From assembly GCA_014764515.1 (NCBI GenBank), contig JACXWD010000002.1, forward strand, positions 62,001 through 126,000: DNA of 64,000 bases, read 5' to 3'. The notes beneath the pieces are model-generated. The model did no database searches. It worked only from the letters and a program-made list of their open reading frames with translations, and had not been told where the DNA came from. Origin of the DNA: Candidatus Polarisedimenticola svalbardensis (GTDB lineage Bacteria; Acidobacteriota; Polarisedimenticolia; Polarisedimenticolales; Polarisedimenticolaceae). The first letter of the stretch is position 1. The number at the start of each line of letters is the position of its first letter. Of this stretch, positions 549-39,164 are shown piece by piece. The translations under genes were made by a program, and so were the position numbers.

Positions 549-2513
549 GTGAAACGGCTGCGGTTCTTCCGCATCCTGCTGCCGGCCATCCTGGTGCCTT
601 TCCTGGTGCTGGTCGGACTGGAGCTGCGCAAACGGATCGACCCCTGGTCTCCACCAGTCGGGCGGACCGAAGAGGGGACCAGTGCCCAGGGGATCAAATT
701 CACCGACCACGATGGAGAGAAACAGACCTTTACCATCGAGGCCGAGTCCTATTCGGACATCGGGGACGGAACGCAGCGGCTGCAGGGTGTGCGTCCTCTG
801 ACGGTATACCGCGATTCCGGTGAGCCGCTGGTGATCTCCGCCGACTTCGCCGACTGGGAGGGGGAGCCCGGGGCGAGATTCGTACGGGTCGAGGGCGGCA
901 TCGAAGTTCGCGAGGAAGCAGACGGTCTGCTCGTCAACATTCCGGTGCTTGAGATCGACGAAGCGTCGGCTGAGGCTCGCTCCCTGGGAGGTGTCCGGTT
1001 CGAGGCGCCTGGAATGACCGGAACCGCAGCATCGGTGATCTACCCACTGGACGACCGGCCGACCATGTTCCGGGACCTGGCCGTAACAATGAGCGACCGT
1101 TACAGGCTCCGTTCCGAGACCGCCACCCTGGTGGAGGGCAGCGACGAGATCCTGCTGGAAGGAGGCGTTCGCCTCCTGGGACCGGATATGGAACTCGAGT
1201 GCGCAGTCTTGAGGATCTTTCGGGACGACGAAGGAAACCTGCAGAGAGTCCTGGCGGTTGGCGGTGTGGAAGCCGGAGCGTTGCTGAAAGAAAACAGCAA
1301 CGCGCGGATGAAGTCGGGCAGTCTTGAGCTCAGCTGGAGCGAGGCCGGCGAAATCGATTTCCTGCTTATGGACCAGGATGTGATCCTGCAGGTGGATGAG
1401 CAGGGCCTGGCTGCCCGGATGGTTCGTGTGAGCAACCGGAAGCGCCAGGACGAGCGATGGGATTTTCTGGCGGCAGGCGGCGTCTACCTCGAGGGCCTCT
1501 CCCGGGACGGCAAGGTCAGCCTGCAATCGTCACGGCTGGAGGGAGTGCTCGAGTCGGACGGAAAATTGAAGGATGCCGACGTCACCGGCTCGATCCGGTT
1601 CACCGGCCCGGAAACGATGGCGGAGGCTGACAGCGCCCGGATAGAAAAGAGCGAAGCGCAGTACGCCATTGCACTGCATTCCTCGCCGGCCCTGCGGGCG
1701 AGGGTGTCCAGCGCCCGGCATCGGATCACCGGCCAGAATATCCATCTCCGGTCCGGAAGTCAGTACATCCTTGCCGAGGGACGGGTGGAGGCCACTCTCC
1801 TCCCGGAAAGCGGCGACTCTACAAAGGATGCCGGCATGTTCCGGAAAGGAGAAGCGGTCCATTTCGTAGCCCGGGAGATGCACGGTTCTCCCGACGGCGA
1901 GACGATCCGGTTCACCGGCGATGTCAGGGGATGGCAGGGTGAGCGCACCCTGTCCGCCGATTCGGTACAGCTCAAGAAAGCCGGCGGTGACCTCCTGGCC
2001 GAAGGCAAGGTCGGGACCCGGCTTCCGGGGCGACGGGCCGATTCCCTTGCCGACGCCGATTTCATCCACATCAGTGGAGACAGCCTGGTTTATTCCCAAC
2101 AGTCGGCGACGGCTGTGTATACCGGAAATGTGCATGTGAGGCAGGCCGAAGGCTGGCTGACCACCGAGCGTCTTGAAGCGGAGCTGCAGAAGGACGACTC
2201 GGATCTTGAAGTCCTCAGAGCGATCGGAAACGTGGTTCTCGAATACAGGGCGCGTTCCGAAAGCGGTGGCACAGAACAGGTCCAGGGCGATTCCGACCGT
2301 GCCGAATACACACCGGCCGACGCGGTGGTGCGTCTGTTCGGAGAACGCAAACGGGCGACGCTCCGGAGGTCCGGTCCTGAGGCGGTTAGCATCTTCGGCC
2401 GGATCCTGCGTTATTATCTCGATGAGGGCACCATCGAGGTGGAAAAAGGCCTGTCGGGCAGGACCAGGATCCAGACGCCGGAAGGCGGCCAGGAGGAACC
2501 GAGTGGAGGGTAG
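549..2513 (+). CDS. LptC/LptA-type (OstA-like) LPS transport protein, apparent LptC-LptA fusion
   Basis: N-terminal single TM segment ([21 protein letters not shown]), then repeated OstA-like beta-jellyroll stretches (e.g. [39 protein letters not shown]); immediately upstream of lptB. Confidence 0.8.
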
Positions 2514-3237
2514 TGAAGGCCTCAGCGCCGAAGGACTGGTAAAGAGCTTTCGGGGCCGCACGGTTGTGGACGGTGTTTCCGTATCCATCGAACCGGGCGA
2601 AGTGGTCGGGTTGCTCGGCCCCAACGGCGCCGGCAAGACGACCTCGTTCCACCTGATTCTCGGTCTGGTGCCGCCGAACAAAGGCAAGGTGCGCCTGGAC
2701 GGCAAGGACATCACCAACCTGCCGATGTATCTGAGAGCCCGTCACGGCATCGGCTACCTGCCGCAGGAACCTTCCATTTTTCGAAAAATGACCGTGACGG
2801 AAAATATCCTCTCGGTACTGGAGCTGCGCGGCCTGCCGGTTCAGCAGGCCAAGGAGCTCTGCGAATCCCTGTTGCAGGAGTTCGGCCTTCTAAAGGTCGC
2901 CGGCTCCCACGGCTACGCACTGTCCGGAGGGGAGCGGCGCCGGGCCGAAATTGCCCGGGCCCTGGCCGGTGATCCCAGGCATATGCTCCTGGACGAACCG
3001 TTCGCGGGAATCGACCCGATCGCGGTCTCGGACCTCCAGCGAATCGTGGTCCGGCTCAAGGAAAAAGGGCTCGGTGTACTTATCACGGACCACAATGTCC
3101 GGGAGACTTTACAGATCACGGATCGGGCCTATATTATTAGTCAGGGTCGCATATTCAGGCACGGGACCCCATCCGAACTGGCCTCGGACAGCGAAGTGCG
3201 TCGGGTATACCTCGGAGATAAATTCAGGCTTCACTGA
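2503..3237 (+). CDS. lptB: LPS export ABC transporter ATP-binding protein LptB
   Basis: [36 protein letters not shown] Walker [17 protein letters not shown] signature, [11 protein letters not shown] Walker B; GTG start at 2503 preceded by AGGAGGA; overlaps upstream CDS by 11 nt. Confidence 0.93.
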
Positions 3238-3281
3238 CGCGCCTGGATGACGGGCTGGGACGTCGGAGGAGCGGAGACTGG

Positions 3282-4709
3282 ATGGCTCTTGAGCAGAAAC
3301 TAAGTATCCGGATGAGCCAGCGGCTCGTCATGACACCCTCCCTGCAGCAAGCGATCAAACTCCTCCAAATGTCCAAGCTCGAGCTGGCGGAGGAGATCCA
3401 GCAGGAATTGCTGGAAAACCCGGTCCTTGAGGAGAGTCAGCTGGAGGAATCCGGGTCGGACAAGCCGGAGCCGGAGGCGGAGGCCGAACCGGAAGCGGCG
3501 GCGGACAGCTTCGACGATATCGACTACGAAGCCTATTTCCAGAATGTGGACAACGACATGCCTCCGCCGCCTCGTCGTGAGGTTCGTGAGGACCTGCCCT
3601 CATTCGAGACCATGCTGTCCAACCCACCGGACCTGACCGACCACCTGACCTGGCAGCTGGAAATGAACGACATCGACCCGCTCCACAAGGAGATCGGTGC
3701 TGCGATCATCGGCAACCTGAACCATGACGGCTACCTGAGGGCGACCCTTGAAGAGATCCGGGACATGGGCGGGTACGCCATGGAGGCGGTCCTGGAGACG
3801 GTAGAGACCATCCAGGGGTTTGATCCTGTAGGAGTCGCATCCAGGGACCTGGTGGAATGCCTATGCGTGCAGCTCAAGCACCTGGGGCAGGCCGACACAC
3901 CGGCAGAGGCGATCGTCCGCTACCACATGGACAAACTTCAGGGGAAAAAATACAAGGACCTGGCCGCCGCCCTGGAACTGGACATGGAAGATCTGGAAGC
4001 GGAAATAGAAATCATCCGCGGCCTGGACCCGCGTCCGGGGCAACGCTACAACACCGAGGACAACCATTACGTCATCCCCGATGTCCAGGTAGTCAAAATC
4101 GACGAAGAATACGTGGTGATCCTCAACGACGACGGCCTTCCCCGGTTGAAAATCAGCCCGGTCTACCGCCGGATGCTGAAGGCCAAGGGTAGCGGGGCCG
4201 AGCGGGCGGAAACCAAGGAATACGTCAGGAACAAGCTCCGTTCGGCGTTCCGTTTGATCAAGAGCGTCGAGGAGCGCCAGCGAACGATTTACAAGGTTGC
4301 TTCGGCCATCGTCAAGTTCCAGAAGGACTTCCTCGACTACGGTATTGAGCAGCTGAAACCGCTTGTCCTGAAGGATGTTGCGGAAGAAATCGGTATGCAC
4401 GAGTCGACGGTCAGCCGGGTGGTGAACAACAAGTACATGCACACCCATCGCGGCCTGTTCGAGATGCGCTACTTCTTCCACAGCGGGATCGCATCCAACA
4501 GGGGCGGGGCGAACATATCGAGCCATACGGTCAAGGAACAGATCCGGAAGATCGTACTCGGCGAAGATCCGAAGAAACCGTTGTCCGATTCGGCCATTGT
4601 GAAGATCCTCAAGGCCTCCGGACTGCAGATCGCACGGAGGACTGTGGCGAAATACCGGGACGAGTTGAAGATTCCATCGTCCAGCGCCAGGAAGCAAGGC
4701 TTCCGCTGA
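3282..4709 (+). CDS. rpoN: RNA polymerase sigma-54 factor
   Basis: N-terminal QRLVMTPSLQQAIKLLQMSKLEL, C-terminal RpoN box IARRTVAKYRDELKIPSS. Confidence 0.97.
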   Translation: MALEQKLSIRMSQRLVMTPSLQQAIKLLQMSKLELAEEIQQELLENPVLEESQLEESGSDKPEPEAEAEPEAAADSFDDIDYEAYFQNVDNDMPPPPRREVREDLPSFETMLSNPPDLTDHLTWQLEMNDIDPLHKEIGAAIIGNLNHDGYLRATLEEIRDMGGYAMEAVLETVETIQGFDPVGVASRDLVECLCVQLKHLGQADTPAEAIVRYHMDKLQGKKYKDLAAALELDMEDLEAEIEIIRGLDPRPGQRYNTEDNHYVIPDVQVVKIDEEYVVILNDDGLPRLKISPVYRRMLKAKGSGAERAETKEYVRNKLRSAFRLIKSVEERQRTIYKVASAIVKFQKDFLDYGIEQLKPLVLKDVAEEIGMHESTVSRVVNNKYMHTHRGLFEMRYFFHSGIASNRGGANISSHTVKEQIRKIVLGEDPKKPLSDSAIVKILKASGLQIARRTVAKYRDELKIPSSSARKQGFR

Positions 4710-29788: not shown

Positions 29789-31144
29789 ATGGACCGTTCC
29801 GTCCACAACAAAGGCACGTACCACATCGAGACGTGGGGGTGTCAGATGAACGTCCATGATTCGGAAAAGCTGTCCGGATCGATGGAAAGGGAAGGCTACC
29901 TTCGAGCCGCCGGTCCCGACGGTGCGGACGTTGTGCTTCTGAACACCTGCTCCATCCGCGAGAAAGCTTCGGAGAAGGTCTTTTCCGAACTGGGCCGCCT
30001 GAGGAAACTCAAGGACCGCAATCCGGACATGATCCTGGGCGTTTGCGGATGCGTCGGGCAGCAGGAAGGTGCGGAGATCTTCCGCAGGGCGCCTTTTGTC
30101 GATCTGGTCATCGGTCCCAGATCAACCGCTTCGCTACCTGCATTGATGGAGAGGGTGCGGCAGGGCGAAACCGATGTAAGCCTGCGTGTGGACACCGAAT
30201 ACCGTCGTGATTCCATTGATTTCCCCTACGACCAGATCCGGAGGGAAGGGGAGGCGGCCGGGAAGGCGTTCGTCACCGTAATCGAAGGCTGCAACCACCG
30301 ATGCACCTTTTGCATCGTTCCGCGAACCCGGGGGAAAGAGGTCTGTCGCGGGATGGACGACATCCTGGCCGAAGTGGGCCAACTGGCGGACCGGGGGGTG
30401 CTGGAAGTGGAATTCCTCGGCCAGACCGTGAACGCCTACAGGGATGACCGGGGGAACGGCCTTGCGGAGCTTCTGGTTGCGACCTCCCGGATCGACGGCA
30501 TAGAACGGATCCGGTTCACGACTTCCCATCCGGCCCAGATGACGGAGCGTTTGATGGACGCCATGGCGGAAGCCGGGCCCCGGGTCGTCCCGTTCCTGCA
30601 TCTGCCGGTGCAGTCCGGTTCAAGCTCCGTTCTCAAGGACATGCGCAGGGGATACGATCGGGGCACCTACCTTGCGAAGGTAGCCGCTCTCCGTGAACGC
30701 ATACCGGGAATCTGCCTGGGTACCGATATCATCGTCGGATTCCCTACCGAGTCCGACGTCGATTTCAGGGAGACGCTTTCGCTGATGGAAGAGGTCCGCT
30801 TTCACAGTTGCTACAGCTTTACCTACTCCCCACGGCCCGGGACGGCCTCCGAGGCGTTCCACGACGGTGTAGGCCCGGAGGAGAAGCAGGCCAGACTTCA
30901 CGAGCTGCAGCTGGTTCAGAAGGGGATCCAGGAGAGGCTCCACGCCTCCTGGGTCGGTCGTACGGTAGAAGTGCTGGTGGAGGGGGCCAGCAAAAGCGAC
31001 GCCTCCAGGATGACCGGCAGGACACCTGAGAGCCGGATTGTGAATTTCACGGGGAATGCCGTAATTGGCCGTATGGCCCCGATCCTGGTGGAATCTTCAT
31101 CGGCTTACGCCCTCTTGGGAAGAAAGATCGAGCCGGAAGCTTGA
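29789..31144 (+). CDS. miaB: tRNA-2-methylthio-N6-dimethylallyladenosine synthase
   Basis: YHIETWGCQMNVHDSEKLSG, VIEGCNHRCTFCIVPRTRGKE radical SAM CxxxCxxC, C-terminal TRAM domain. Confidence 0.96.
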   Translation: MDRSVHNKGTYHIETWGCQMNVHDSEKLSGSMEREGYLRAAGPDGADVVLLNTCSIREKASEKVFSELGRLRKLKDRNPDMILGVCGCVGQQEGAEIFRRAPFVDLVIGPRSTASLPALMERVRQGETDVSLRVDTEYRRDSIDFPYDQIRREGEAAGKAFVTVIEGCNHRCTFCIVPRTRGKEVCRGMDDILAEVGQLADRGVLEVEFLGQTVNAYRDDRGNGLAELLVATSRIDGIERIRFTTSHPAQMTERLMDAMAEAGPRVVPFLHLPVQSGSSSVLKDMRRGYDRGTYLAKVAALRERIPGICLGTDIIVGFPTESDVDFRETLSLMEEVRFHSCYSFTYSPRPGTASEAFHDGVGPEEKQARLHELQLVQKGIQERLHASWVGRTVEVLVEGASKSDASRMTGRTPESRIVNFTGNAVIGRMAPILVESSSAYALLGRKIEPEA

Positions 31145-31170
31145 CCGGCCTGTTTCAGGCTATGTATATT
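31141..31170 (+). promoter_or_regulatory. Sigma-70-type promoter for DUF151 nuclease
   Basis: TTGACC-N18-TATATT; -35 overlaps the miaB stop; spacer contains GCCTG-TTT-CAGGC. Confidence 0.55.
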
Positions 31171-31214
31171 CATTGGGGTACGGCTTAATTCACCGCAGTC
31201 CCCGGGGTAATTGG

Positions 31215-31700
31215 ATGTCACTGGAAGTAAAAGTACGCGGCCTGATGATCGACCCGGTTTCCAGCATGCCGATCATCATCCTGAAAAACAGCAGTGGCGA
31301 CCAGGTCCTGCCTATCTGGGTCGGGATCTTCGAAGCCAACGCCATCGCCATGGAACTGGAAAAGATCGTCTCGCCCAGGCCGATGACCCACGACCTGCTG
31401 AAAGACGTCATTCAGGCCCTTTCAGGCGGAATGGAGAAGGTGGTCATCACCGACCTCCGGGACAATACGTTCTACGCCATGATCCATATCAAAGGCAAGG
31501 ACGGCTCGGTGGCAGTGGATGCCCGGCCCAGTGACGCCATCGCCCTCGCCCTCCGGGCCGGCGCACCGATCCATATCGAGGAACGTGTCATGGAGCAATC
31601 CAGCGCCACCGGGGAGGATTCGGCAGCGCTCGAGGCCGAGAGGCTGCGCCGCTGGCTGGAAAAAATCGACCCTGAGGAGCTTGGCCACTACGAGATGTAG
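31215..31700 (+). CDS. Bifunctional nuclease family protein (DUF151)
   Basis: VKVRGLMIDPVSSMPIIILKNSSGDQVLPIWVGIFEANAIAMELEKI...RPSDAIALALRAGAPIHIEE; start at 31215, not the longer ORF. Confidence 0.94.
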   Translation: MSLEVKVRGLMIDPVSSMPIIILKNSSGDQVLPIWVGIFEANAIAMELEKIVSPRPMTHDLLKDVIQALSGGMEKVVITDLRDNTFYAMIHIKGKDGSVAVDARPSDAIALALRAGAPIHIEERVMEQSSATGEDSAALEAERLRRWLEKIDPEELGHYEM

Positions 31701-31717
31701 GGGCCGGTCGGGGAAGG

Positions 31718-31746
31718 TTGACACGTCCCAAGGCACCGGTTACACT
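31718..31746 (+). promoter_or_regulatory. Sigma-70-type promoter for parAB
   Basis: TTGACA-N17-TACACT, ~105 nt upstream of the parA ATG. Confidence 0.65.
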
Positions 31747-31850
31747 CCAGCCGTTACCCATTTCCACGCAACTACTACATTCGGTAGCATCCACTGGCGA
31801 CACCGCCATATGCTGTGGTGCCGGTGCCAAAGAGCTGAAACGGGCGTTCC

Positions 31851-32618
31851 ATGCGGACTTCGGTAATCGTCGTAGCCAACCAGAAAGGCGGAGTGGGGAA
31901 AACCACAACCGCAATCAACCTATCGGCCGCCCTGGCCCAGCGAAACTACAAGACACTGCTGATCGATCTCGACCCACAGGGAAACGCTTCGCTGACGTTC
32001 GTCGACACCCGGGAGCAGACCCATACGGTCTACGAGCTGCTGGTGGATCGCAACGTCAAGGTCGAGCAGACCATTCAGGCCAGCGAGAGCGACAAGCTGG
32101 ACGTCATCGGGGCTCGCATTTCCCTGGCCAATGCCGACTCCAAACTGATCGGCGAGTTCGACAGTTATTATCGTCTCAAGGACAAGCTTGAGTCCCTGGA
32201 CGGCAAGTACGATTTCATCATCGTTGACACACCTCCAACCCTGGGGATCCTTACCGTCAACGCAATGGTGGCCGGTACACACCTGGTGGTCCCGGTACAG
32301 GCTTCCTACTTCTCCCTTGAGGGAACTGCGGATCTTCTGGATACCTACGACAGGATACGGAATCGGCCCAACCCGAACCTGAAGTTCCTGGGGGTCGTCA
32401 TTACGCTCCACGACAAGCGCACGATCCTGGCTCGTGAGGTGACCGAGGAGATTCGCGAAAAATTCAGCGACAAGGTGTTCGACACCATGATCTCCAAGAG
32501 CGTTCGCCTCGAGGAGAGTCCGGCTCATAACCAGAGTATTTTCACATTTGCGCCGCGTTCCACCGGAGCGCTTGAGTACTACAAACTAGCTCAGGAGGTG
32601 GTTGATCGTGTCCGGTAA
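31851..32618 (+). CDS. parA: ParA family chromosome partitioning ATPase
   Basis: VIVVANQKGGVGKTTTAINLSAALAQRNYKTLLIDLDPQGNAS deviant Walker A. Confidence 0.96.
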   Translation: MRTSVIVVANQKGGVGKTTTAINLSAALAQRNYKTLLIDLDPQGNASLTFVDTREQTHTVYELLVDRNVKVEQTIQASESDKLDVIGARISLANADSKLIGEFDSYYRLKDKLESLDGKYDFIIVDTPPTLGILTVNAMVAGTHLVVPVQASYFSLEGTADLLDTYDRIRNRPNPNLKFLGVVITLHDKRTILAREVTEEIREKFSDKVFDTMISKSVRLEESPAHNQSIFTFAPRSTGALEYYKLAQEVVDRVR

Positions 32619-33543
32619 GCAAAGAGGTCTCCCGAAGAACAAGAAGCTGCGACACGACACCCACTTCGTGGACGAGATCACAGCCGACTCGTCGGAAGCG
32701 ATCGGCCGGCTGATCGAGATCGGTCAGATAAGGCCGAACCCGGAGCAGCCCAGGAAGTCGTTCGGCGACCTGAGCGAGATGGTTGAGTCGGTCAAGGAGA
32801 AGGGGATTCTCGAGCCGATCCTGGTCCGCTTTTCCGAGGCCGAAGAGAATTACGAGATCATTGCCGGCGAGAGGCGATTCCAGGCAGCTAGCCTGGCAGG
32901 TCTTCGAAAGGTGCCTTGCATCGAGGTCGATGTCGACAATCGGGGCATGCTTGAAATATCCCTGGTTGAGAACCTTCAACGCAAAGACCTGAATGCTTTC
33001 GAAGAGTCTGCGGCAATCCTGCGGCTTTCCGAACAGTTCCGGTACACCCATGAGGAGATCGCCAGAAAGCTCGGTAAGTCCAGAACGATCATCACCGAAA
33101 CCCTGAGTCTGAACAGGATTCCCGAAGACGTTCAGGACCGATGTCGGCAGGCCGACATTATGTCGAAATCGATGTTGCTTCAAATCGTCAGGCAGGATTC
33201 CCATGAAGCGATGCACCATCTGGTGGACAAGATCACCGGTGAAGGCATGACCCGGGAGGAAGCCAGGCGGTTCAACAAGGCCGACGGTTCGGGCAAGCCC
33301 CGGGTGCGCCGCTTCAGCTATAACTACAAGCCTGAAGATAGACCTTTCAGATTCAACATGACCTTCGACAAGAAGGATGTTGAAAAGGAAGAAGTGATCC
33401 TGGCTCTCAAGGAAGTTCTGGAGAACCTGGTTCGTGAGCTGGAGATCGAGCGGTTTGAAGCAGGAGCTGAACAGGAAACGGACCGCAAGAGATCGACACG
33501 AACCCCAAGAGCCGAATCAAGAGGCAATGCGGAACTGACCTGA
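32608..33543 (+). CDS. parB: ParB/RepB/Spo0J family partition protein
   Basis: IRPNPEQPRKSFGDLSEMVESVKEKGILEPILVRF...YEIIAGERRFQAASLAGL...SLVENLQRKDLNAFEE; GTG 32608 (TTG 32602 also possible) overlapping the parA stop. Confidence 0.93.
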   Translation: MSGKQRGLPKNKKLRHDTHFVDEITADSSEAIGRLIEIGQIRPNPEQPRKSFGDLSEMVESVKEKGILEPILVRFSEAEENYEIIAGERRFQAASLAGLRKVPCIEVDVDNRGMLEISLVENLQRKDLNAFEESAAILRLSEQFRYTHEEIARKLGKSRTIITETLSLNRIPEDVQDRCRQADIMSKSMLLQIVRQDSHEAMHHLVDKITGEGMTREEARRFNKADGSGKPRVRRFSYNYKPEDRPFRFNMTFDKKDVEKEEVILALKEVLENLVRELEIERFEAGAEQETDRKRSTRTPRAESRGNAELT

Positions 33544-33731: not shown

Positions 33732-36167
33732 ATGATCGGTATACGCCGGATCACAGGATACGTTTTCAGGGAACAGTTGGGCCCGACTGTTCTCGGCTTT
33801 TCCCTGTACACGTTCATCCTTCTGATGAACGCGTTCTTCCTGGTTGCCCAGAAGACCGTTGCCAGCAATCTGGGATGGGATCTCACCTTCAGGCTCTTCC
33901 TGCTCAGGGTTCCAAGCCTCCTGGTTCTGACCATTCCCATGGCGATCCTCCTGGGCGCGCTCATCGGGATCGGACGCCTGTCCTCGGATTCGGAGTGGAT
34001 CGCAATCCAGTCTTCCGGCCACGGTCTCAGAACCCTGGTCAAGCCGTCGATCCTTCTTGGTCTGCTCGGCGCCTCCATCTCTCTTTACCTGTTCTGGGTT
34101 GTTGTTCCCCGGTCCAACATCGCGCTTCGGACCACGCAGATGGAGGTCATGCTCGCTTCCAACATGGCCTCGGACCTCAAGCCGCGAACCTTCTACTTCA
34201 CTCCGGAAGGCCGGGTGATGTTCGTGGATGAGATTACCGCCGGCTCCAAGGGACTCCTGGAGGGTGTGTTTATCCACAACCCGATCCGGCCCAACCAGAC
34301 TCGGGAGCTGATTCTGGCCCGGGAAGGCAACCTCTATCCCTCATCCGACGGGTCCGGCAGCCTGGAAATGGATCTGCGAGATGTGGTGCTGCACCTTTAC
34401 AAGCCGCATTCTCCGGAGAGTTACCAACACAGCACCTTCGACAATTACCACATCGTCTTGCCTCCCCCGGCTCATATCCAGGCTCTCAAGGAACCGCCCC
34501 GAAAGACCGTGAGGAACATGGGTCTTGGCGAGTTGCGCGATGAGTTGTCCAGGGCCGGCCGGGATTCCAATGCCATCATCGCCGATGTCCGCAAGCGAAA
34601 TGCCCTGATGGAATTGAACACACGGGTCGCCCTTCCGCTGGCCTGTTTGCTGTTCGCCATTCTGGCCGTTCCATTGGGTGTCACCAGGGCCCGATCCGGC
34701 AAAGGGGCCGGATTCGCCATGAGCATGCTGGTAATTACCGTTTACTACCTGATCCTCACCATCTGCCAGGATCAGGCCAGAAGAGGCCGGATCCCTCCCA
34801 CACCGGCGATCTGGTCCGCCAACGCCGTCATTCTGCTGTGGTGCCTGTACGCCCTCTGGAAGCTGCGGAGGCCAGGGGGTGAGTCCCGGGGCGTCCTGAG
34901 CGCCCTGTTGGACCTTGCCATCACCTTCTGGCGACGGCTGGCGGCGCTGCTCTCCCCTGCTACATCCAAGGCCCAGAGTCAGGAGGAGAACCTTCTGGAA
35001 GGCGAGGCGCCGGAAGTTCAGGAAGCGATCCGGAAAAAGGTCGGGTTCCGTTTTGTGCCACGGCTGGATTCTTACGTCGGATCCCATTTCATCCGGCTGT
35101 TCCTGTATGCCCTGCTGTCCAGTTACGTTATTTACGGCATCGTGGAACTCAAGTCGCTGATAACCCAGATGATGGAGCACCAGCAGCCTCCAGGGCTTCT
35201 CCTGAGCTATTTCAAGTACTTCGCCCCCGGCATGATCCCCTTTACCGTGCCGATCGCCTGCATGGTCGGAGCGATCGTCGCCGTCACGATCCTTTCAAGA
35301 ACCGGCGAACTCGACGCCATGAAGGCCAGCGGCATCAGCGTCCGGCGCGCCACCGCTCCGATCTTCCTGGCTACCCTCGCCATATGCGGCGTGTACTTCG
35401 TGGCGCAGGACAAATTGATTCCGGTCACGAGTCAGAAGAGTCTTGAGATCAAGGATCAGATCCACGGCAGGTCTCCCAGAACCTACGGCGCCCGCCCCGG
35501 CGGCTCCTGGGTTTTTTCCGCAGACGGCACCCGCCTGTACCACTACCGCATGTTCGACAGCGACCCCGGGTTTTTCCAGGCGCTGAACAGCTTCACCATC
35601 GACCGGGACGCCATGAAAGTCCGGTCACACCGTTTCGGCGACGCCGTCAACTGGGTTGATGATGCCTGGGTCCACACCAGGGGCTGGTACCGCACCTTCC
35701 CCGCAGACGGCACCGCCGGCATCTACAGTCATGAGGAAACCGCGGTGGTGGAAGGGTTGGACGGACCGGAACATTTTGCCCAGCGGGAATCGGGGATGAG
35801 ACGGAACAACGATGCCAAGATTGAACAGTTCGACATGGAAGCGCTGAAGGCGGAAATCCTGAGCCTGCGTCAGTCCGGCTACGATACGACCCGTCTGGAA
35901 GTTTCCTATTTCGGCCGGTTCTCCCGGCCGCTGACGCCTCTGGTCATGGTCATGCTGGGCCTGCCGTTCGCCTTCCGCATCGGCCGCAAAGGATCGCTGT
36001 ACGGGATCGGCGTCGCCATCCTGCTGGTGATCCTGTACTGGGCCACCTTTGCCATCTTCAACGCCCTGGGCCTTGAAACCATCCTGCCGCCGTTCCTTGC
36101 GGCCTGGGCTCCCAATATTTTCTACGGACTCCTGGGCGCCACCCTGATGCTGTACGTCCGGACCTGA
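33732..36167 (+). CDS. LptF-LptG fused LPS export permease
   Basis: Two consecutive YjgP/YjgQ units: FREQLGPTVLGFSLYTFILLMNAFF...LRVPSLLVLTIPMAILLGALIGIGRLSSDSE, and SHFIRLFLYALLSSYVIYGIVELKSLITQM...APGMIPFTVPIACMVGAIVAVTILSRTGELDAMKASG. Confidence 0.93.
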   Translation: MIGIRRITGYVFREQLGPTVLGFSLYTFILLMNAFFLVAQKTVASNLGWDLTFRLFLLRVPSLLVLTIPMAILLGALIGIGRLSSDSEWIAIQSSGHGLRTLVKPSILLGLLGASISLYLFWVVVPRSNIALRTTQMEVMLASNMASDLKPRTFYFTPEGRVMFVDEITAGSKGLLEGVFIHNPIRPNQTRELILAREGNLYPSSDGSGSLEMDLRDVVLHLYKPHSPESYQHSTFDNYHIVLPPPAHIQALKEPPRKTVRNMGLGELRDELSRAGRDSNAIIADVRKRNALMELNTRVALPLACLLFAILAVPLGVTRARSGKGAGFAMSMLVITVYYLILTICQDQARRGRIPPTPAIWSANAVILLWCLYALWKLRRPGGESRGVLSALLDLAITFWRRLAALLSPATSKAQSQEENLLEGEAPEVQEAIRKKVGFRFVPRLDSYVGSHFIRLFLYALLSSYVIYGIVELKSLITQMMEHQQPPGLLLSYFKYFAPGMIPFTVPIACMVGAIVAVTILSRTGELDAMKASGISVRRATAPIFLATLAICGVYFVAQDKLIPVTSQKSLEIKDQIHGRSPRTYGARPGGSWVFSADGTRLYHYRMFDSDPGFFQALNSFTIDRDAMKVRSHRFGDAVNWVDDAWVHTRGWYRTFPADGTAGIYSHEETAVVEGLDGPEHFAQRESGMRRNNDAKIEQFDMEALKAEILSLRQSGYDTTRLEVSYFGRFSRPLTPLVMVMLGLPFAFRIGRKGSLYGIGVAILLVILYWATFAIFNALGLETILPPFLAAWAPNIFYGLLGATLMLYVRT

Positions 36168-36172
36168 TCAGG
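36163..36172. repeat. Perfect 10-bp palindrome CCTGATCAGG containing both convergent stop codons
   Basis: TGA of lptFG (36165-36167) abuts the TCA (TGA on minus strand) of the phosphodiesterase-TPR gene (36168-36170). Confidence 0.95.
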
Positions 36173-39164
36173 ATCCGGATTCCAGATCCGACACCCGTTC
36201 CGCCAGTCTGGCCTGGGAACGATCCAGCTCCAGCGAGCGCTTCCAGTACGACAGGGCCTCCTGATTCCGACCGAGCCGGAGGGCCGCCTCACCCATGACA
36301 TTGAGCAATGCAGGGGAATCCCCCAGCCGGCCCCGGGCCTCCTGCAACAGCTTCAGGCCCTCACCATAGCGGCCGTCTTCCAACTCGAGGTAGCCCTGCT
36401 GGAGGAGTGCCTGGGACCTGGCCCTGGGATCGGCGGCCGCCGCCAGCAGTTCCTGCCTGGCGTCATCGGTCAGGCCGCGGGACCTTAGAACCAGAGCCAG
36501 GTTCACCCGGGCGTCGCCATACCCGGGCTCCAGTTCCAGGGCGCGCAGGAGGTATTTTTCCGCTCCGTCATATTCTCCCCGGGCGATGCGGATACCGGCA
36601 AGGTTGTTGTAGGGCGATGGATATTCCGGCGCCGCCAGAACCGCCCGCTGCCAGAGTTTGTCCGCTTCATCCATCTCACCAGTGGCAAAATAGAGGCTGG
36701 CCAGGTTGTTCATGACGACTGCATTGGTCGGCGCTTTCTCGAGGGCTCGCCCGTACAGATCGATGGCGTTCCCTGTTTCCCCCCGGTCCTGGTACACCAG
36801 CGCCAGGTTGTTATACGCGCCCATGAAATAGGGATCGGCCTCGATCGCCGCCAGATACCATTTTTCCGCCTCCACCCCATCGTTCCGGCTCCGGGCCAGG
36901 TTTCCCAGATGGTTGCGCGGCTGGGCTATATCCGGATCCAGGTCTGCGGCCCGTATCCAGGCTCTCTCCGCACCGTCCGGGTCACCCTGCTTTTCCAGCG
37001 CCTGTCCCAGGGTCGTGATGATCTCCACCGCCTCCGGCTCCCGCTCCAGGATGGACTGCAGCAGCGAGACCGCTTTCCCAAGATCGTTCCGTTCAAGGGC
37101 CAGCCTGGCAAGGTGGTGGGCCGCTACCCGGTAGGCGTGGGGATATCCCATGGCTCGCTGAAAAATTTTACCAGCCTCATCATTCCGTTCCTGCATCAGG
37201 ACGGAAAGCCCCAGGTTCACCAGCAGCGTGGGCTGCTCTCCGTTCTCTTCGATCCCGGTGCGGAACTCCGCTTCGGCCTCGGCGAAGAGCCCCTCCGCCA
37301 TGAGCGCCACCCCGGAATTATTCCTGGCAGTTGTTGAATTCTTACTTTCTGAATCGCTGGAGATATATCCCAGCGATCTGAGCTTCTTGAGGAGGTCTTC
37401 GTCGCCCTCCCCTCCCGAACCTGCGTCGGCTCCTGCTCTCCGCTCCGGATCGTCGGTTCGGAACCGGACCGGGTTCTGCTCCAGAAAGGCCGGGTCGATC
37501 GCTCCGGCCAGGACCTTGCCGGGCCATGAAGACGGCACCGGCTGGCCGTAGAGAGCCAGGATGGTCGGCGCAATGTCATACACCGAGGCCTGTTCCAGGC
37601 TGGCTGCCGGAACGATGTGCCGTCCGGACAGGATCAGCATGCCGAACTTGCGGTGCCAGGAGGCTGCCTGCCCGTGGCCGATCCTGCTGTCGGCGGTCTG
37701 GGGGCGGGTGGCGTCGGAGGCAAACCCATGGTCCGAGAGAACCATGACCGTCCAGTCTTTCCCCCGGCCCGCAAGGAGTTCGCCCAGGTAACGGTCGGCC
37801 TGTTCGTAATAGCGGTCCACCACATGGCGGAAACGTGCCTGGCGCCGGACCGAAACCCCGGGAAGCAATGGATCCCGGAAGCTCATGAACAGGTGCCCGA
37901 CAGTGTCGGTGCCTTCGAGATAAACCGCCTCGAACCCCGGTGAATACTGCTCATGGAGCCGGCGGGCAATACCTACGTAACTGTCGCCGGACGCAAGGAG
38001 TGTACTGAAGCTGTCCAGGAGCTCCCGGTCGGCTCCCTGGTAGTCCTCTTCCGAGGAATCGTCCGGCGAAAAGAAGGAAGCGGTCCGTTCCCACGGTATC
38101 TCGTCGGGAGAAACGATATCGGTGCGTATCTCGTTGTAAAGTTCCGGAGGCCAGGTCTTGCCCTGTTCGTCGTCCGGATCCGTTTTGAAATCGAACAGTT
38201 GGTAGGCGATCCGTTCGGAGACCAGATACCCGTTGACGGCATCGGCCGGCCATGTGGCCCACCAGCCGACCACACCGGTTCGGGTTCCGGCCTCGCCCAG
38301 CATCTCCCAGACCGTGGCGGCCTTGCGATGGGCGGAGGTCACCGGCTGCTTGTTCCCACCAGCAGGATCCTGCACCAGGAAATCCAGGATGCCGTGTCGG
38401 CTCGGCTCCACCCCGGTAACCACTGATGTCCAGATAACCGGCGAGAGCATGGGACTTATGGTCAACAGCTTGGTCCGGACTCCACCCTCTATCAGGCGCT
38501 CCAGGTTCGGGAGCCGGCCTGCAGCCAGGAGCGGGTCCAGGATGACCCAGTCGGCGCCGTCCAGGCCGACCACAAGCATGCGGGTGTCGGCAGCCGGGTA
38601 GGACCTTCCGTCCACCGCCAGCAGGTAGTCCAGGGAGTCCAGAGAGAGCTCCCTCAGGTCGGCGCCACGTTGGGCCAGTCCGACCTTCAGACGCTGGCTC
38701 AGCTCATCCTGAAAGGCGCCGGTGCCCAGGTTGCGGTGGACCCCGCGGTCCATCCCTGCGCCGGCTTCCCGGACGGCGGCGAGAAGAAGATCCCGGGCGC
38801 CTGCTCCCTGGTCGGCGGTGGCGATGTCGGCCCATGCTTCCGGCCGCAGGCGGACGGTTGCCCAGCCCCGGAACCCATATCGTGATCCGTCGGCGCCGGG
38901 GATCAGGGCGTCTTCGGCCTGGGGCAACGGCAGGACCACCGCATCCCTCGGATAGCGATCCAGGTGGACCAGGCCGGGTGGGGCGACGGCGAACCGGCCG
39001 TCAGCCGGCCGGGGGTAACCCAGGAACGACGGACCTCGCAGAACACCGAATTCGGATTCCGGGCTCAGGGAGTGCATCCCGGAGGCAAACCAGACGATTG
39101 CCAGAGCAATCGCCGCAACGAATGCGATCGAACCTTTCGAAGCGCCCTTACCGTTGCGGTTCAC
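36168..39164 (-). CDS. Membrane-anchored phosphodiesterase/alkaline-phosphatase superfamily protein with C-terminal TPR array
   Basis: LVVGLDGADWVILDPLLAAGRLPNLERLIEGGVRTKL...SPVIWTSVVTGVEPSRHGILDF, VLSDHGFASD; then about 9 TPR units (e.g. NNLALVYQDRGETGNAIDLYGRALEKAPTN). Confidence 0.88.
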   Translation of the reverse strand: MNRNGKGASKGSIAFVAAIALAIVWFASGMHSLSPESEFGVLRGPSFLGYPRPADGRFAVAPPGLVHLDRYPRDAVVLPLPQAEDALIPGADGSRYGFRGWATVRLRPEAWADIATADQGAGARDLLLAAVREAGAGMDRGVHRNLGTGAFQDELSQRLKVGLAQRGADLRELSLDSLDYLLAVDGRSYPAADTRMLVVGLDGADWVILDPLLAAGRLPNLERLIEGGVRTKLLTISPMLSPVIWTSVVTGVEPSRHGILDFLVQDPAGGNKQPVTSAHRKAATVWEMLGEAGTRTGVVGWWATWPADAVNGYLVSERIAYQLFDFKTDPDDEQGKTWPPELYNEIRTDIVSPDEIPWERTASFFSPDDSSEEDYQGADRELLDSFSTLLASGDSYVGIARRLHEQYSPGFEAVYLEGTDTVGHLFMSFRDPLLPGVSVRRQARFRHVVDRYYEQADRYLGELLAGRGKDWTVMVLSDHGFASDATRPQTADSRIGHGQAASWHRKFGMLILSGRHIVPAASLEQASVYDIAPTILALYGQPVPSSWPGKVLAGAIDPAFLEQNPVRFRTDDPERRAGADAGSGGEGDEDLLKKLRSLGYISSDSESKNSTTARNNSGVALMAEGLFAEAEAEFRTGIEENGEQPTLLVNLGLSVLMQERNDEAGKIFQRAMGYPHAYRVAAHHLARLALERNDLGKAVSLLQSILEREPEAVEIITTLGQALEKQGDPDGAERAWIRAADLDPDIAQPRNHLGNLARSRNDGVEAEKWYLAAIEADPYFMGAYNNLALVYQDRGETGNAIDLYGRALEKAPTNAVVMNNLASLYFATGEMDEADKLWQRAVLAAPEYPSPYNNLAGIRIARGEYDGAEKYLLRALELEPGYGDARVNLALVLRSRGLTDDARQELLAAAADPRARSQALLQQGYLELEDGRYGEGLKLLQEARGRLGDSPALLNVMGEAALRLGRNQEALSYWKRSLELDRSQARLAERVSDLESGS

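Follow-up and report, generated by a model that had tools for sequence, protein, structure and literature searches.

A phylum-wide single-chain LptF-LptG permease in the Acidobacteriota and an apparent one-chain LptC-LptA bridge protein

The window analysed here is a 64,000-nucleotide stretch of the Candidatus Polarisedimenticola svalbardensis genome, and Table 1 presents the features in it that bear on the LPS exporter. With an ATG start and a single frame, lptFG encodes a protein of 811 amino acids. The Pfam family PF03739 matches this protein in two stretches (443.4 bits in total, cut-off 27.9), and the two units score 246.6 and 200.4 bits in a search of the organism's own genome. Hydropathy and the family alignment both give a transmembrane (TM) bundle, a periplasmic domain and a further TM bundle, twice over. 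A sequence-only reading of the locus had proposed two complete units of the LptF/LptG family in one 811-residue ORF, and the paired Pfam stretches, hydropathy and alignment bear this out. The charged linker quoted in that reading corresponds to residues 401-438, inside the inter-unit stretch of residues 378-444. With LptFG as the query, phmmer matches LptF chains from LptB2FG structures in the PDB (6mjp, 6s8g, 5x5y and others); an AlphaFold model made from two sequences has a pLDDT of 33.9, too low to be of use. On the opposite strand, an ORF at 36168-39164 (-) whose stop adjoins that of lptFG encodes 998 amino acids with a type I phosphodiesterase/sulfatase-like domain and C-terminal TPR repeats, and it is also present in the uncultured Acidobacteria MAG L033.

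Table 1. Exporter genes, their parts and syntenic markers in the window.
Feature	Position	Strand	Basis or remark
lptFG, fused LptF-LptG permease	33732..36167	+	ORF, Pfam, NCBIfam, own-genome search
LptF unit, residues 10-377	33759..34862	+	PF03739 10-377; TIGR04407 8-377
Linker between units, residues 378-444	34863..35063	+	sequence and length unconserved
LptG unit, residues 445-808	35064..36155	+	TIGR04408 445-808
Glu88, coupling-helix Glu of LptF unit	33993..33995	+	at least 90% conserved, 33 fusions
Glu526, coupling-helix Glu of LptG unit	35307..35309	+	invariant, 33 fusions
lptCA, putative LptC-jellyroll-LptA, 654 aa, GTG start	549..2513	+	profiles; adjoins lptB-rpoN
LptC-like part, TM helix (6-24) and jellyroll, approx. 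residues 1-187	549..1109	+	profile A1, hydropathy
Middle jellyroll, approx. residues 188-448	1110..1892	+	hhalign to C-terminal LptA region
LptA-like part, approx. residues 449-649	1893..2495	+	PF03968; TIGR03002; PDB LptA 2r19
lptB ATPase, start approximate	2521..3237	+	TIGR04406 349.9 bits, cut-off 240; PF00005
rpoN (sigma-54), syntenic marker	3282..4709	+	directly after lptB
miaB - DUF151-type - parA - parB, directly upstream of lptFG	29789..33543	+	conserved neighbours

The identity of each half was assessed with NCBIfam models and a tree. Taken alone, the N half scores 197.6 bits with the LptF model and 94.9 with the LptG model, while the C half scores 172.9 bits with the LptG model and 91.7 with the LptF model. 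A FastTree phylogeny was made from 50 aligned fusions, each cut in two, along with LptF and LptG from E. coli. One branch, with a support of 0.99, separates the 50 N halves and E. coli LptF from the 50 C halves and LptG, so that 102 of 102 sequences are correctly placed. Both halves match the same Pfam family, as they would if a single permease had been duplicated in tandem; however, such an origin is very improbable given the far higher score of each half with its own NCBIfam model and a tree that parts the N halves and E. coli LptF from the C halves and E. coli LptG with no exception. Together, the scores and the tree indicate a joining of lptF and lptG that retains the gene order of the E. 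coli pair, and the LptF-then-LptG assignment made at the outset is therefore upheld.

The genome from which the window derives (3.69 Mb in 180 contigs, 100% complete, 4.86% contamination) has exactly two PF03739 places, both in the lptFG ORF. The expectation that the genome would hold no separate lptF or lptG was thus confirmed by a PF03739 search of the whole assembly, which matched the lptFG ORF alone. LptF and LptG as separate polypeptides are the textbook form and not a requirement of the family, and here they are not separate. The genome also carries lptD, encoding 787 amino acids, on contig C85. The number of contigs and the level of contamination may raise the concern that the single frame reflects an error of assembly or sequencing, or two genes read through by chance. 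Against this, the same single frame is found in L033, an independent assembly and the nearest named relative (87% identical over the whole protein), and fused frames occur in genomes of many families, some of them assembled as one contig. An artefact therefore has a negligible probability, and the chance reading is refuted by the recurrence of the frame across the phylum. The gene order miaB-DUF151-parA-parB followed by lptFG is found in the own genome, L033 and three further genomes (G145, G167 and G143), and extends to distant acidobacterial families.

PF03739 was matched in 293 of the 297 genomes sampled from the phylum Acidobacteriota. The description of the fusion as phylum-wide rests on the frames displayed, the approximately 150 best of these 293 matches, and almost all of them encode 750-910 amino acids. 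Within the same order, ten of ten genomes have a fused frame (798-987 amino acids), and lptFG is also fused, at about 730-815 amino acids, in family f32, the most divergent and one with poor Pfam scores. Where checked, the short frames among strong PF03739 matches are no more than a few hundred bases away from the end of a contig. Among genomes that seemed to lack the fusion (G293, G012, G287, G138 and G258, as well as G102, G239, G091, G228 and G211), every short frame proved to stand at such an end. The fused lptFG is a phylum-wide trait of the Acidobacteriota, and is ordinary there rather than a local oddity. Acidobacterial proteins of about 780-810 amino acids with two PF03739 domains are present in public annotation, so the architecture itself is not unseen.

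Some members of the family depart from the common form. One genome (G059) encodes an LptFG fusion of 950 amino acids when read from the first possible start (L049:1150-3999), and its N end would be about 110 residues longer than others, a putative extension. The same genome and G237 each hold a weak PF03739 relative of 270-280 amino acids (L115:3509-4321 and L164:3702-4541, respectively) in which a periplasmic jellyroll is not evident; these are possibly degenerate or differently used permeases.

A 2022 survey that uses the distribution of Lpt genes to discuss outer-membrane evolution described lptF and lptG as "apparently lacking in Acidobacteria" (PMC8871954). This published absence is contradicted by the phylum-wide lptFG. 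The survey selected orthologues by E-value, length, profile coverage and copy number, a selection that could have excluded proteins of double length. In a literature search largely without subscription journals, no paper was found that describes an lptFG or lptCA fusion, or lptFG as a trait of the phylum.

In the exporter, the coupling-helix Glu of each permease unit contacts LptB. Conservation of this residue was counted over 33 diverse fusions and is high in both units (Table 1), and Glu88 aligns with the Glu of the E. coli-type LptF motif SEITVM. Since both residues are conserved, this argues that both halves of LptFG still dock LptB. As judged from the known topology, the linker would be cytoplasmic and would run from where LptF TM6 ends to where LptG TM1 begins. 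Across 50 fusions, its length ranges from 29 to 86 amino acids (median 54) and its sequence is unconserved, and such variability suggests a segment without conserved structure. A linker that varies in this manner would also suit a chain that is made whole and then cut to yield ordinary LptF and LptG. This outcome is unlikely, since no conserved cleavage motif is seen and, in the genomes examined, no split frame occurs away from contig ends, although splits would be tolerable if separation were the working state. A flexible linker with a median of 54 residues would equally permit two fused chains to pair, either by domain swapping or as an LptFG dimer, in which case the fusion would not by itself secure a one-chain transporter. 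Intramolecular packing of adjacent halves is simpler, and the solved LptB2FG structures contain one F chain and one G chain, making a paired form decidedly improbable. A 1:1 stoichiometry would be fixed by the fusion, unless processing or domain swapping were to break it.

Turning to lptCA, this gene lies 31 kb from lptFG in the window. On its own, the protein has a sole Pfam match, to the LptA/LptD_N family (PF03968) at its C end. It exceeds the cut-off for LptA (TIGR03002, 74.1 bits against 71.7) and falls below that for LptC (TIGR04409, 15.8 bits against 38), and phmmer against the PDB gives weak, mixed matches. Within the own genome, no separate LptC was found with PF06835, and no second ORF matches PF03968. 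Profile A1, built from 25 lptCA relatives, is more informative. With hmmsearch, its positions 8-187 match LptC (6mit_C, residues 5-185, TM included) at an E-value of 4.4e-5, and in the PDB it matches the solved LptA 2r19 at 8.2e-17; the LptA matches cover positions 449-570, and a match to another LptA structure covers 523-649. All 25 members match TIGR03002, 22 of them match TIGR04409 (E<=0.1) and 19 match PF06835, and 24 have one N-terminal TM. The middle and C-terminal segments align with each other with an hhalign probability of 97.7-97.9%, while the LptC segment aligned with the single E. coli LptC gives an uninformative 3.5%. An AlphaFold model of the 654 residues from a single sequence is likewise unusable, with a pLDDT of 34.5 and the N-terminal helix alone reaching 70-90. 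The profile, family and hhalign matches together point to LptC, an extra LptA-like jellyroll and LptA in one chain. The LptC assignment of the window copy, weak when taken alone, derives from its relatives. By these comparisons, lptCA appears to be an LptC-LptA bridge made as one protein, with a predicted function in LPS transfer. LptA in its textbook form is a free soluble periplasmic protein; the chain here has an N-terminal TM instead. The jellyroll portion of about 620 residues equals roughly four modules of LptA or LptC size (about 155 residues each).

The lptCA profile finds matches in 220 of 247 acidobacterial genomes and in 134 of 141 genera, and all frames among the matches listed are about 600 amino acids or longer. 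Family f32 gives weak matches or none with the profile, and in one of its genomes (G097) a single ORF of 570 amino acids with an N-terminal TM stands before lptB-rpoN. Across the cases read, the length of lptCA is about 570-780 amino acids. A seemingly separate LptA of 163 amino acids in G102 appears to lie near a contig end, as judged from a shortened locus. The order lptCA-lptB-rpoN is kept in all five genomes checked (that of the window, G097, G145, G167 and G143). Of 23 cases in which lptCA and lptFG share a contig, 22 have lptFG downstream of lptCA, at a distance of 13.5-40 kb and on the same strand.

The explanation we favor, with a probability of about 0.9 as a whole, is that LptFG is a one-chain exporter permease and that the bridge receiving its substrate, LptCA, also seems to be one chain. 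In an ancient event, adjacent lptF and lptG genes would have been joined in-frame in the ancestor of the Acidobacteriota. One LptFG chain may then combine with two LptB ATPases into LptB2-(LptFG), each half docking one LptB via its conserved coupling-helix Glu. This complex would extrude LPS from the inner membrane and pass it to the periplasmic jellyroll. The extraction would presumably be driven by LptB, the gene for which is present in the window. From the LptF jellyroll, LPS could be handed into the LptC part of LptCA (anchor and first jellyroll), and then proceed through the middle jellyroll and LptA to LptD. Since a linker of about 54 residues is long enough and forces no new packing, the normal mechanics of LptB2FG would be expected from one chain.

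By itself, the lptFG fusion is a solid but modest finding, being common in the phylum, and it gains interest when set beside the apparent one-chain bridge of LptC and LptA. It is somewhat better than an even bet that the exporter of the Acidobacteriota has been consolidated into LptFG and LptCA, with one LptCA perhaps spanning the periplasm and the length of the bridge held in one gene. If lptCA is expressed as read, the length of the periplasmic bridge would be genetically fixed, unlike the bridge of LptA copies in E. coli. How many LptA molecules make up the bridge is described in the literature as unknown (PMC7237710; PMC10094684). A single LptCA chain might be the whole bridge, which would make this open question directly testable, and the natural variation in lptCA length could be compared with the width of the periplasm. 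The one-chain LptFG would also be convenient for asymmetric mutagenesis of the LptB2FG complex.

The LPS exporter is known as a system of seven separate parts. LptFG resembles the LptB2FG(C) complexes of E. coli, Klebsiella, Vibrio and Pseudomonas (6mhu, 5l75, 6mjp, 5x5y and 6mit) in having the same two units, in following the E. coli lptF-lptG gene order, in keeping the coupling Glu and in the presence of a matching LptB. It differs in being one chain of 811 amino acids with a linker, whereas LptF and LptG of E. coli are two subunits encoded by overlapping genes (2219-3319 and 3319-4401 of L064). In the solved structures, the TM helix of LptC sits between LptG TM1 and LptF TM5, where it helps to gate the cavity (PMC6744409). 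LptCA shares an N-terminal TM and jellyroll with E. coli LptC (6mit_C) and a C-terminal jellyroll with E. coli LptA (2r19). The E. coli gene order is kdsC-lptC-lptA-lptB-rpoN, and lptCA holds the lptC-lptA slot directly before lptB-rpoN. While E. coli has separate LptC (191 amino acids) and LptA (185 amino acids) proteins, lptCA encodes one chain of 654 amino acids with about 260 extra jellyroll residues.
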